Shown here: positions 39,252 through 43,541 of the stretch, piece after piece
Layout of the letters: each line of letters starts with the position of its first letter
Numbering within the stretch: position 1 is the stretch's first letter
Source: Parvularculaceae bacterium
GTDB taxonomy: Bacteria; Pseudomonadota; Alphaproteobacteria; Caulobacterales; Parvularculaceae
Reading direction: 5' to 3'
DNA: 64,000 nt
NCBI GenBank assembly: GCA_020446945.1
Contig: JAGRDS010000001.1
Location: forward strand, 376,807-440,806
The notes under the pieces: model-generated
Seen by the model: only the letters and a program-made list of their open reading frames with translations
Database searches by the model: none
What the model was told of the DNA's origin: nothing
Made by a program: the position numbers and the translations under genes

Positions 39252-39647
39252 TCAATCCCGACCGACGCGGATAACGATATCGATCCTGCGCACTGAAGCG
39301 CCGCGCGGCAATTGCGGCCGCCCCGTGATTTTCAGGGCGTCGAGGGGAATATCTTCAAGGCGTCCTTCGTCCTCGTGATAGAGATGATAATGCGGCGCCA
39401 TATTGGTGTCGAACCAGGCCGCGCCGCCGTCCAGCGTCACCTTGCGGATCAGACCGACGCGGCAAAATTCGTTGAATGTGTTATACAGGCTAGCAAGCGA
39501 GGGGAGCATGCGGCGCTCGCGCAATATATCGAGCGCCTGCTGAACCGTAACGTGCTTATCGGTCCCGTCGAACAAATATTCCGCGAGCGCCAAACGAATG
39601 CGCGTCGGCTGAATGCCGGCGCGTTGCAATGTTTCTCTAACCGTCAA
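39252..39647 (-). CDS. irr: Irr-type iron response regulator (Fur family)
   Basis: 131 residues. Fur-like winged helix (GIQPTRIRLALAEYLF, LPSLASLYNTFNEFCRVGLI) and dimerisation part. The metal/heme region reads APHYHLYHEDEG, the Irr form of the Fur HHH motif with the middle His as Tyr, and there is no Cys zinc site. Irr represses or activates iron and heme genes under iron limitation in alphaproteobacteria and responds to heme. It shares a 203-bp divergent region, rich in repeats, with the 39851 gene. Confidence 0.85.
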   Translation of the reverse strand: MTVRETLQRAGIQPTRIRLALAEYLFDGTDKHVTVQQALDILRERRMLPSLASLYNTFNEFCRVGLIRKVTLDGGAAWFDTNMAPHYHLYHEDEGRLEDIPLDALKITGRPQLPRGASVRRIDIVIRVGRD

Positions 39648-40242: not shown

Positions 40243-41256
40243 TTATTCGGCTTCGGTTTTTATCGGGCGCGCCATCAGCGCCGCGATAATTTCGTCGAGC
40301 GCGCGCCTGCCGGAAACGAGGTCCGCGACCGCGGCGCAAACCGGCATATCGACGCCGGCCTGTTTCGCCATCGCAACGAGAGCCGGCGCGGTCGCGACCC
40401 CTTCGGTTACAGCGCGCCGTTCGCTCAAAATTTCATCGATATTTCGCCCGCGTCCAAGCTCGAGCCCGAGCGACATATTGCGCGACTGGCTCGAAGTTGC
40501 GGTGAGAATTAGATCGCCGAGGCCGGACAGGCCAGCCATCGTTTCGGCTTTCGCGCCGCGCGCGACGCCTAGACGCTGGAATTCTGCAAAACCGCGCGCA
40601 ATCAATGCGGCGCGCGCGCTATCGCCAAGGCCGCGCCCTTCAACGGCGCCGGCGGCGATCGCCAGCACGTTCTTCACCGCGCCGCCCAGTTCGGCCCCGA
40701 CCAGATCGTCGGAAAGGTATGGCCGGAAATGCGCCGCACCCAGCGTCGCCGCCCATCGACCTCCGAGCCCCTGATCCGCGCAAGCGAGCGTCACTGCGGT
40801 CGGAAGGCCGATGGCGACGTCGCGAGCAAAGCTCGGGCCGGATAATACGGCGGGCCGCGCTCGCGGCCATACCTCGCTCAGAACCTCGGTCATCATCTTT
40901 CCGCTCGACCGCTCAATTCCTTTCGCACATAGGGCAAGCGGCGCGTTTGCAGGTGCGGCCGCTTTCAGATCGGTCAAAACGGCGCGGGCATGCTGGGCCG
41001 GCGCGACGAACAGATAAGCTTCTCTCCCAGCAGTCGCCGAAATATCCGCCGTCGCTTTCAGCGAGGCTGGCAGGCGTACGCCCGGAAGGTAGGGCCGATT
41101 CTCATGCTCATCATTGATGGACGCCGCCGTCTCCGGTTCGAGCGCCCAAATAAGCGCATCGACGCCGTTGGCGGCGACAAGTGTTGCGAGCGCGGCGCCC
41201 CAGGCTCCGCCGCCGATGATCGCCGCTGAACGGAATGGAAGCGCCTGACTGGTCAT
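40243..41256 (-). CDS. gpsA: NAD(P)-dependent glycerol-3-phosphate dehydrogenase
   Basis: 337 residues. Rossmann motif IIGGGAWGAALATLVAANG, catalytic Lys region ELGGAVKNVLAIAAG, and the substrate-binding GLGDLILTATSSQSRN. It makes sn-glycerol 3-phosphate for phospholipid synthesis. In related bacteria gpsA follows tsaD directly; here a tetR gene and a tiny membrane gene lie between them in the opposite direction. Confidence 0.95.
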   Translation of the reverse strand: MTSQALPFRSAAIIGGGAWGAALATLVAANGVDALIWALEPETAASINDEHENRPYLPGVRLPASLKATADISATAGREAYLFVAPAQHARAVLTDLKAAAPANAPLALCAKGIERSSGKMMTEVLSEVWPRARPAVLSGPSFARDVAIGLPTAVTLACADQGLGGRWAATLGAAHFRPYLSDDLVGAELGGAVKNVLAIAAGAVEGRGLGDSARAALIARGFAEFQRLGVARGAKAETMAGLSGLGDLILTATSSQSRNMSLGLELGRGRNIDEILSERRAVTEGVATAPALVAMAKQAGVDMPVCAAVADLVSGRRALDEIIAALMARPIKTEAE

Positions 41257-41272: not shown

Positions 41273-41294
41273 TGAACGCTTTATAAAGCATTCA
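41273..41294. promoter_or_regulatory. 22-bp palindrome, candidate TetR operator O1
   Basis: Centre GCTTTATAAAGC is a perfect 12-bp palindrome. With the flanks TGAAC and ATTCA the symmetry extends over 22 bp with one mismatched pair. It lies in the 67-bp gap between gpsA and tetR, 30 bp before the tetR start, the usual place for autoregulation. A related site lies at 42014. Confidence 0.65.
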
Positions 41295-41323
41295 GTTCCC
41301 TAAAGCGGACAGAAATTGATCTT

Positions 41324-41950
41324 ATGACAGCAACCGTCGAAACGCAGCCCCCTCTGGACGAAACGGCGCGCGCAATACTGGACGCCGCCAGCCGCCGCTT
41401 TCTTCACTACGGCTACGGCAAGACGACCATGTCGGAGATCGCCGGCGACTGCAACATGTCGACCGGCAACCTCTATCGCTATTTTCCGTCCAAGCTCGAT
41501 ATCGCTGAGGCTTTCGTGCGCCGCCTGCGTGCGGAACAAACGCGCCTCCTGCGCGAGGCTGTCGGCAAGGCCGGCCTTTCCGTCCAGGAAAAGCTGCGGG
41601 CGTTTTTCAAGTTGAAGCTTACGCTGGTCTATGAGCGCTTTCACAAGCGTCCAAAGGCGTACGAGCTGTCTCAGGAAATCATGAACGAACGGCCGAGCTT
41701 CGCCGATGAATGGGAGCGAGCCGAATCCCGGGTGTTGTGCGAGGTGCTGAACGCCGCCGCCGCAACGGGCGATCTGGCGGTTTGCGACGCGCCTCGCACG
41801 GCGCGCATTCTTCAAGACATTTTTTATCGTTTCGCCAGCTCGTCAGTATATTACGAAGGCGAATTCGACCTGCTCGAGAGCGAGCTGGACGATGTTCTGG
41901 ACCTAATATGGGACGGATTTGAACACCGCAAATCGGCCTCGGCGCCCTAA
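41324..41950 (+). CDS. TetR-family regulator
   Basis: 208 residues. The N-terminal helix-turn-helix is standard (LDAASRRFLHYGYGKTTMSE, then DCNMSTGNLYRYFPSK). The C-terminal ligand/dimer domain is helical, with a basic patch (YERFHKRPKAYE) and an acidic end. It lies between gpsA and a 40-residue membrane peptide, both flanked by similar palindromes, so it probably represses itself and the peptide gene. Ligand unknown. Confidence 0.9.
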   Translation: MTATVETQPPLDETARAILDAASRRFLHYGYGKTTMSEIAGDCNMSTGNLYRYFPSKLDIAEAFVRRLRAEQTRLLREAVGKAGLSVQEKLRAFFKLKLTLVYERFHKRPKAYELSQEIMNERPSFADEWERAESRVLCEVLNAAAATGDLAVCDAPRTARILQDIFYRFASSSVYYEGEFDLLESELDDVLDLIWDGFEHRKSASAP

Positions 41951-42013
41951 CTTATTGAAAATTGTGATAATTTTTTTGGCATAATATGCTCACACCTAGT
42001 TGATGTTGAAGAA

Positions 42014-42035
42014 TGAATTTTTTTGAAATTATTCA
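42014..42035. promoter_or_regulatory. 22-bp imperfect palindrome, candidate TetR operator O2
   Basis: Ends TGAAT and ATTCA with the same 22-bp span as the site at 41273; 15 of 22 positions agree between the two, mostly in the half-site pattern TGAA..TTT. It abuts the -35 box of the small-peptide promoter, so a bound dimer should block RNA polymerase. Confidence 0.55.
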
Positions 42036-42064
42036 TTGACTCTTCGCGGGTGCAGCATTAGATA
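42036..42064 (+). promoter_or_regulatory. Promoter of the 40-residue peptide gene
   Basis: TTGACT (42036-42041), a 17-nt spacer and TAGATA (42059-42064). The start of transcription would be near 42071, about 65 nt before the start codon. Confidence 0.5.
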
Positions 42065-42136
42065 GCGGCCAAGGCTTCCGCGGGTCGGCAATTTCGTCGG
42101 CGCGCCAGACGAAGCTTCGATAAAAGAGAAACAGCC

Positions 42137-42259
42137 ATGAACACGACCAACTCGTCATCTTTCGGCGTCCGGTTCGCACTTGCAATCGCTCTGTCCGCGG
42201 CTATCGCCGGCGGATATCTGACTGCGATCGGATATCTGAACCCCGGCTTCATCGCCTGA
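42137..42259 (+). CDS. 40-residue single-span membrane peptide
   Basis: ATG 42137 after a purine-rich AAAGAGAAA. Composition: a polar Ser/Thr/Asn N-terminus (MNTTNSSSFGV), a hydrophobic helix (FALAIALSAAIAGGYL) and a short end TAIGYLNPGFIA. The YLTAIGYL stretch resembles YFTAIGQF in the peptide at 34528. It has its own promoter, an operator-like site and a strong terminator, so it is a true gene despite its size. Function unknown. Confidence 0.6.
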   Translation: MNTTNSSSFGVRFALAIALSAAIAGGYLTAIGYLNPGFIA

Positions 42260-42311
42260 TCGGCGCTTGGCCGGCGCGCCGCGGCGCCTAATCCGCGGTG
42301 AAAATTCGAAT

Positions 42312-42378
42312 TCGTCGCCCGTCCTGTAGAACGCCCCTTCGATCAGGACACCCCTCCCCCCAAAAAAAAGGGCGACGA
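42312..42378 (+). other. Nested hairpin in the 3' region of the 40-residue peptide gene
   Basis: TCGTCGCCC (42312-42320) pairs with GGGCGACGA (42370-42378), and directly inside GTCCTG (42321-42326) pairs with CAGGAC (42344-42349). The inner side carries a C-rich run and an A8 tract. It is an ordered 3' untranslated structure ahead of a separate terminator. Confidence 0.5.
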
Positions 42379-42384
42379 GGCAAG

Positions 42385-42430
42385 AACGCGGAAGCCACAC
42401 CCCTCCCGGCTTCCGCGTTTTTTCTTTTCG
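42385..42430 (+). terminator. Strong intrinsic terminator
   Basis: AACGCGGAAGCC (42385-42396) pairs over 12 bp with GGCTTCCGCGTT (42408-42419), loop 11 nt, followed by a T-rich run TTTTTTC TTTT. It ends the tetR/peptide transcript ahead of the convergent tsaD stop. Confidence 0.85.
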
Positions 42431-42452: not shown

Positions 42453-43541
42453 TCAGGCCTTCGGCCCCTTCTTGCCGCCGCCAAGTTCCCGGCCGGGGAT
42501 CGGTTCGGCGAGCGGCCAGCGCGCGCGCGGCGCAAAGCCGAGCGTTTCCTCAACGGGCGAAACCAATCCCAAACGCAAGCGTTCGATCCCGGCCCATGCG
42601 ATCATCGCGCCATTGTCCGTGCAGTATTTCGCCGGCGGAATGACAAGCCGCCATTTCCTGGAATCCGCGAGCGCGGCTAGACGCCGGCGGATTTCCCCAT
42701 TGGCGGCCACCCCGCCGGCGACGACTAGCGTTCGCGGGCCGCCGCCTGAGAGGCTGGCCATAGCCCGCTCGGTCCGATCCGAGAGATGCGCGGCGAGTGC
42801 GGATTGAAAGGATGCGGCCAGATCGGCAATATCCGATCCGGACGGGTTGTCGATCGCTTCGGCGGCGAGGCGTAGCGCCGTTTTCAGTCCCGCGAGGGAG
42901 AAATCACAGCCTTCTCGGCGCGCCAGAGGTTTTGGAAAGTCAAACCGGCCCGCATCGCCCTTTTCCGCCGCCGCCTCGATCTGCGGTCCGCCAGGTTGGC
43001 GGAGACCCAATAGTTTCGCCGATTTGTCGAAAGCCTCACCGGCCGCATCGTCGATCGTCGTTCCGAGCCGGCGGTATGCCCCGACGCCGGATACCTCGAT
43101 CAACTGGGTATGGCCGCCGGACACGAGCAGCAGCAGATAGGGAAAGCCGACCTCCTCGCTCATGCGAACGGAAAGGGCGTGCCCTTCGAGATGGTTGACC
43201 GGAATGAGCCTTTTTCCATGCGCGATCGCTATCGCTTTCGCGCTGGTCAGGCCGACCATGACGCCGCCTATCAGTCCAGGGCCGGCCGTCGCTGCAATCG
43301 CATCGAGATCGGAGAAGGTACGGCCTGAGTTATCAAGCGCTTGCTCCACAATTCCGTCGATACGCTCGACATGCGCGCGCGCAGCGATTTCCGGGACGAC
43401 GCCGCCATAATCCGCATGCCGGTCATATTGGGCGCGCGTCACGTCGGACAGGATTTCGCGTTCGCCGCCGCAGACGCGTATGACTGCGGCGGCGGTGTCG
43501 TCGCAGCTCGATTCAAGGCCGAGAACCAGATACTCGCTCAT
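42453..43541 (-). CDS. tsaD: tRNA N6-adenosine threonylcarbamoyltransferase TsaD
   Basis: 362 residues from ATG 43541, giving the conserved LGLESSCDDTAAAVI N-terminus; the open frame to 43631 lacks support. ASKHA fold with metal ligands H117 and H121 in HLEGHALS, plus LLVSGGHTQLI and the late VVAGGVAANGEIR. It transfers the threonylcarbamoyl group onto A37 of ANN-decoding tRNAs, the substrate later used by MtaB (also in this window). Divergent from hemD; hemC, usually between them, is not here. Confidence 0.95.
   Translation of the reverse strand: MSEYLVLGLESSCDDTAAAVIRVCGGEREILSDVTRAQYDRHADYGGVVPEIAARAHVERIDGIVEQALDNSGRTFSDLDAIAATAGPGLIGGVMVGLTSAKAIAIAHGKRLIPVNHLEGHALSVRMSEEVGFPYLLLLVSGGHTQLIEVSGVGAYRRLGTTIDDAAGEAFDKSAKLLGLRQPGGPQIEAAAEKGDAGRFDFPKPLARREGCDFSLAGLKTALRLAAEAIDNPSGSDIADLAASFQSALAAHLSDRTERAMASLSGGGPRTLVVAGGVAANGEIRRRLAALADSRKWRLVIPPAKYCTDNGAMIAWAGIERLRLGLVSPVEETLGFAPRARWPLAEPIPGRELGGGKKGPKA

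Follow-up and report, generated by a model that had tools for sequence, protein, structure and literature searches.

The window, which is the whole 64,000-nucleotide stretch of Parvularculaceae DNA analyzed here, carries a small unit of two genes between gpsA and tsaD (Table 1). The first gene, tetR, is followed on the same strand by a gene for a 40-amino-acid peptide with a single transmembrane (TM) segment. Each of the two genes is preceded by a 22-bp palindromic site (predicted operators 1 and 2), and a structured RNA lies 3' of the peptide gene. Elsewhere in the window, at 39252 to 39647 on the minus strand, there is an open reading frame (ORF) that appears Fur family-like and resembles Irr, as judged by eye from its translation.

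Table 1. Features of the tetR-peptide locus, in window coordinates
Feature	Position	Strand	Remarks
gpsA	40243..41256	-	PF07479 (9e-47), PF01210 (3.9e-42); diverges from tetR
Candidate tetR promoter, TTGGAA-N17-TATAAA	41259..41287	+	Recognized by eye; -10 within operator 1
Predicted operator 1, TGAACGCTTTATAAAGCATTCA	41273..41294		Before tetR; 10/11 symmetric positions
tetR, 208 aa	41324..41950	+	PF00440 (1.9e-13), PF17935 (8e-09)
Predicted operator 2, TGAATTTTTTTGAAATTATTCA	42014..42035		Abuts the peptide -35; 8/11 symmetric positions
Peptide promoter	42036..42063	+	TTGACT (42036-42041), TTAGAT (42058-42063); fits the 71-promoter alignment
40-aa single-TM peptide gene	42137..42259	+	
Structured 3' RNA	42300..42423	+	Terminator end at 42423
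Stems of the 3' RNA			Outer, 42313-42320 with 42370-42377; inner hairpin, 42321-42326 with 42344-42349
C-rich motifs of the 3' RNA	42351-42361 and 42400-42407		
tsaD	42453..43541	-	PF00814 (1.2e-91); converges on the peptide gene

A preliminary description of this DNA had reported a near-perfect palindrome before tetR and a weaker, matching one abutting the -35 box of the peptide gene, and both were confirmed. They share the shape TGAA-N14-TTCA and carry the same base at 15 of 22 positions. The pattern TGAAY-N12-RTTCA was found eight times in the 2.98-Mb genome of the window, including twice at the tetR/peptide locus, and this pair had the highest symmetry (10 and 8 positions, versus at most 7 for the others). 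In G008 and G001, which are sister genomes, the peptide site is equaled or exceeded in symmetry by one unrelated site rich in GC. A search of 61 genomes with TGAA-N14-TTCATTGAC gave 23 occurrences in 20 genomes, versus none with the reversed-pattern control; the tetR locus accounts for 18 of them, a detached peptide gene for 1, and other places for 4. A site before tetR, with at least 7 of the 8 outer bases, was present in 76 of 81 orthologous loci; orthologues do not in general lack both palindromes, and many equally good sites at random positions did not appear. Other good sites were very few in the 61 genomes and in that of the window, in keeping with the earlier view of a self-contained unit.

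In 80 loci, the sequence extends for 600 bases or more downstream of tetR, and in 71 of them this region holds a site followed by TTG and a small hydrophobic TM ORF; the reverse strand as control gave 0, and shuffles gave 0.1. The named loci, being the best 80 of 441 matches, lean to close relatives. A class-wide draw, made of the best 30 of 48 TetR matches (E <= 1e-30) in 385 class genomes, showed the same arrangement in 25 of 30 loci. In a count of 72 in 81 loci, L097 is included on the strength of a spurious site. The site that L097 more likely uses, at +70, has no TTG after it, and this locus was left out of the promoter logo. The sequence of L087 stops 377 bases past tetR. Chance palindromes were ruled out by the reversed-pattern, genome-wide, and reverse-strand/shuffle controls. 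A wider regulon was also rejected, with one extra site in 1 of the 61 genomes: at L048 (G022:C6:21231-21257, minus strand), the operator-like TGAATATTGAAGCCTATATTCA and TTGACG precede a leader that looks FMN riboswitch-like by eye. In L103, a distant TetR relative, an operator-like site stands before an ORF resembling an MMPL/RND exporter, again by eye.

The geometry of the promoters was then compared among loci. Alignment of 71 peptide promoters places TTG immediately after the site, part of this strictness being built in because the detection rule required TTG there, and a CTANAT-like -10 at positions 45 to 50 from the site start. The promoter is often near consensus, and the existence of a promoter proper to the peptide gene, as proposed earlier, is borne out by this alignment. 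The exact tetR sites of relatives (51 distinct ones) have a -35-like TTGATY within the operator and TANNNT at positions 34 to 39. A sigma-70 scan of the window reported neither the peptide promoter nor the tetR promoter. Since the predicted operators overlap both promoters, repression by occlusion at both is suggested. Two further stretches are conserved across the 71 loci, namely, TCAG at positions 34 to 37 (about 42047 to 42050 in the window) and TRAA-like bases at -6 to -1 of the site (about 42007 to 42013).

We next considered whether the short ORF is a real gene. The 92 peptides collected are 30 to 50 amino acids long (median, 39), and each has one hydrophobic stretch, toward whose C-terminal end there is often an acidic or amide residue; the last residue is mostly hydrophobic, and the C terminus has few charged residues. 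No column is invariant in the peptide sequences, and a single conserved motif was likewise dropped. Differences between related peptide genes numbered 63, 39, and 169 at codon positions 1, 2, and 3, respectively (15 disjoint pairs), and the median dN/dS was 0.17 over 84 overlapping pairs; for the window peptide against that of L054, dN/dS was 0.060/0.847. Together, the codon-position bias and the low median ratio indicate that the peptide gene is translated and under purifying selection, in support of the peptide gene named in the preliminary description. The window peptide had no match in Pfam or NCBIfam, and searches with six other peptides gave no relative in these databases (one Pfam E value of 0.023 was under the family cut-off). 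A PDB search with a peptide profile (alignment A3, 29 peptides) returned no solved relative and no AcrZ, KdpF, or CydX chain, only one chance antibody match (E = 0.3), short profiles being insensitive. In L098, L100, and L107, a second small TM ORF lies in tandem behind the first (MFGNGLSNFLDRF... in L100).

The regulator has a clear TetR_N domain (PF00440, 50.4 bits versus a cut-off of 24), and invariant helix-turn-helix residues. In its AlphaFold model (pLDDT, 89.6), the nearest fold is QacR (Z = 19.1, rmsd of 2.3 over 183 residues), followed by FadR types (SaFadR, Z = 17.7) and, at a short distance, by EthR2 and FrrA. Proteins of the TetR family are generally released from DNA by a ligand. 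Because these folds lie close together, we offer only "hydrophobic" as a description of the ligand, at best a fair guess from the modeled fold. The naming of a specific ligand was dropped, many TetR folds being nearly equally close.

The preliminary description had noted a strong terminator behind the peptide gene. A hairpin with a T run indeed folds well in the window (z = -3.5), but in Parvularculaceae it is the end of a larger covarying RNA with CCUCC motifs. The 3' region of this family comprises an outer stem, an inner hairpin of the GTCC/GGAC type (seen by eye), and the terminator. RNAalifold gave 19 pairs, 12 of them with changes on both sides, for an alignment built by sequence and used for the structure as well; 94.3% of the alignment cells pair, versus 38 to 54% when slid, and none of 500 shuffles reached the observed covariation. 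The covarying outer stem rules out a terminator-only reading in Parvularculaceae. An RNA model matched 13 of 37 genomes, and within the family it matched 11 of 11 genomes with a TetR orthologue and 0 of 12 without one, the presence side being partly by construction because several loci were in the model. CCTCC occurs 44 times in 26 loci (13.8 expected), mostly unpaired in the folds, and 31 times in 46 loci of other families (19.5 expected). In Henriciella loci, there is a plain terminator, the CCUCC motifs are absent, and the peptide coding is present. Of the alignments used, A1 held 24 of 26 loci (L019 and L022 were omitted for internal stops); A2, with starts trimmed by hand, held 23 of the 26 Parvularculaceae loci, omitting L061 and L073 (no terminator end by rule) and L067 (a longer 3' region). 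A4, with trimmed ends, was reduced from a first list of 42 to 36 rows (L064, L081, L088, L097, L126, and L133 dropped).

Among known RNAs, ar14 (RF02344) gave a match in the window with an E value of 0.003 and 27.4 bits, versus a gathering cut-off of 58.8, and another in L083 with an E value of 0.13. None of the 37 genomes had an ar14 match above the cut-off, and membership was rejected on score. NfeR1 is the founding ar14 RNA, and its CCUCCUCCC motifs, present in each of three hairpins, are reported to silence mRNAs (PMC10746234). Both ar14 and the present RNA have a terminator and hairpins that expose C-rich motifs of an anti-Shine-Dalgarno-like kind, whereas the RNA studied here has motifs of the CCCCUCCC type without CCUCCUCCC and is the tail of an mRNA. 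A second comparison is offered by the CIN1 locus, where ccaF1 (DUF1127) and the CcsR "cuckoo" RNAs share one transcript, as reported in PMC10253847. There too, a small protein gene is followed by an sRNA-type RNA on the same transcript; that locus has a DUF1127 RNA-binding protein and RpoH promoters, whereas here a TM peptide without any Pfam match, DUF1127 included, lies beside TetR.

The distribution of the unit was examined to understand its origin. Among the best 80 of 441 matches, the closest named relatives of TetR are from Parvularculaceae (Marinicaulis, Amphiplicatus, and Parvularcula metagenome-assembled genomes), and more distant ones include Henriciella, Hyphomonas, Hirschia, Ponticaulis, Aquidulcibacter, Terricaulis, Phycosocius, and Rhizomicrobium. 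TetR is present in 15 of 37 genomes of the window's family. Fourteen genomes of the family that lack TetR have gpsA and tsaD as neighbors on one contig; at one extreme the two genes overlap by 7 bp, and at the other they lie 277 bp apart. Across Alphaproteobacteria, the order gpsA(-) tetR(+) peptide(+) tsaD(-) is seen repeatedly: gpsA or tsaD adjoins tetR in 105 of 110 loci of the class, and both do so in 57, a count limited for tsaD by locus length. In a TetR tree of 30 class-draw loci and 11 earlier loci, 11 family labels required 10 changes, the minimum possible, and 8 of the 11 families form one side of a branch. The earlier suggestion that the unit was placed into a normally contiguous gpsA-tsaD junction is thus not supported. 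Given these flanking genes and a tree that follows the families, the unit was probably not inserted there, and its loss from other genomes accounts better for the pattern. A unit present in the ancestor and later lost is a simpler history than insertion time after time, and contiguous gpsA-tsaD more likely reflects loss.

Several loci depart from the common layout. In G005, tetR lies beside gpsA and the peptide gene beside tsaD, about 14 kb apart; the detached peptide gene retains its site and its RNA, which is a copy outside the RNA model, and the search for exact-ended sites gave none before tetR at this locus (L010). By our rule, the peptide was absent from L103, L108, L117, L122, L125, L126, L130, and L132, from L087, which ends early, and, in the class draw, from L165, L168 to L170, and L173; in L173 a site is present 703 bases on. 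In six of these loci (L108, L122, L126, L130, L132, and L165), tetR keeps its own site. The same six have a LolA-like ORF, recognized by eye, after tetR. For the eight exceptions with enough sequence, the genomes were searched for a peptide elsewhere; sites were present in 5 of the 8 genomes, none of them convincing in the site listing.

We consider it probable that the locus is a ligand-released, self-regulating TetR switch for one membrane microprotein, with an sRNA-like mRNA tail in Parvularculaceae. A TetR dimer would occupy operator 1, over the tetR promoter, and operator 2, touching the peptide -35, and the promoter at operator 2 would have as its sole product a short mRNA for a single-pass membrane peptide of about 40 residues. 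A hydrophobic ligand would free TetR and open both promoters, and a burst of peptide would enter the inner membrane. QacR and the FadR-type repressors are similar in fold, helix-turn-helix, and palindromic sites overlapping promoters. Their known targets are efflux pumps or fatty-acid genes, whereas the sole neighboring target predicted here is the peptide. AcrZ and KdpF are small peptides that bind and adjust membrane proteins, and the present peptide would most likely act likewise; AcrZ, KdpF, and CydX resemble the window peptide in length and in their single TM helix, and none of their chains was matched by the peptide profile in PDB, a search of low sensitivity for so short a profile. In Parvularculaceae, the exposed CCUCC of the mRNA tail may in addition pair with the Shine-Dalgarno sequences of other mRNAs.

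Other readings of the same features were weighed. TetR might activate the peptide promoter from just upstream of the -35 and repress only itself, and in the loci that satisfy the detection rule the site does stop right where the -35 begins, like that of a class II activator. We regard this as improbable: this strictness comes in part from the TTG demanded by detection, the -35 is TTGACA, which should need no activator, in 28 of 71 promoters, and activators are a minority in the TetR family. The peptide could instead act on the membrane itself, its induction lowering the proton motive force and slowing the cell, with TetR in the place of LexA. TisB is a repressor-controlled single-TM peptide of this kind, and DinQ is reported to be another and provides a precedent; a product with a single short TM helix, a repressor-like site placed tightly at its promoter, and a promoter often close to consensus would suit such a role. 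Toxins usually show a scattered distribution, whereas this locus is kept vertically, and the peptide has few C-terminal charges, so a role of this kind seems unlikely. DinQ and TisB also differ from the present unit in being under SOS control with antisense RNAs.

It is also conceivable that the transcript is chiefly a TetR-controlled anti-Shine-Dalgarno sRNA and the peptide secondary. The covarying structure with exposed CCUCC motifs, the two subthreshold ar14 matches, and the reported silencing of mRNAs by NfeR1 through CCUCCUCCC (PMC10746234) favor such a role, but peptide coding is conserved and also occurs in families without the motifs, such as Henriciella, and the ar14 cut-off was not passed in any of the 37 genomes; we hold it to be quite unlikely. 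The TetR switch for a membrane microprotein can be extended, tentatively, to an ancient alphaproteobacterial switch at gpsA-tsaD in which TetR would sense a membrane-active compound and the sole output, the TM microprotein, would tune a membrane complex, the Parvularculaceae mRNA having a dual function with an anti-Shine-Dalgarno tail that silences other mRNAs; in this full form, the proposal is possible rather than probable.

No description of a TetR-peptide unit was found in searches of open-licence papers, and the novelty suggested in the preliminary description stands to that extent. Small membrane proteins usually come to light with neither a function nor a signal attached to them. In the present case, a conserved operator pair links one microprotein family to a regulator of its own in many families of Alphaproteobacteria, and since the pair ties the peptide to its regulator, it would offer a direct way to induce the peptide and to find its ligand and partner. 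In Parvularculaceae, the unit is also an example of a microprotein mRNA bearing an sRNA-like tail. From its sequence, the unit has the look of a chemical switch that many alphaproteobacteria have retained, with a single tiny membrane protein as the only output that can be seen.
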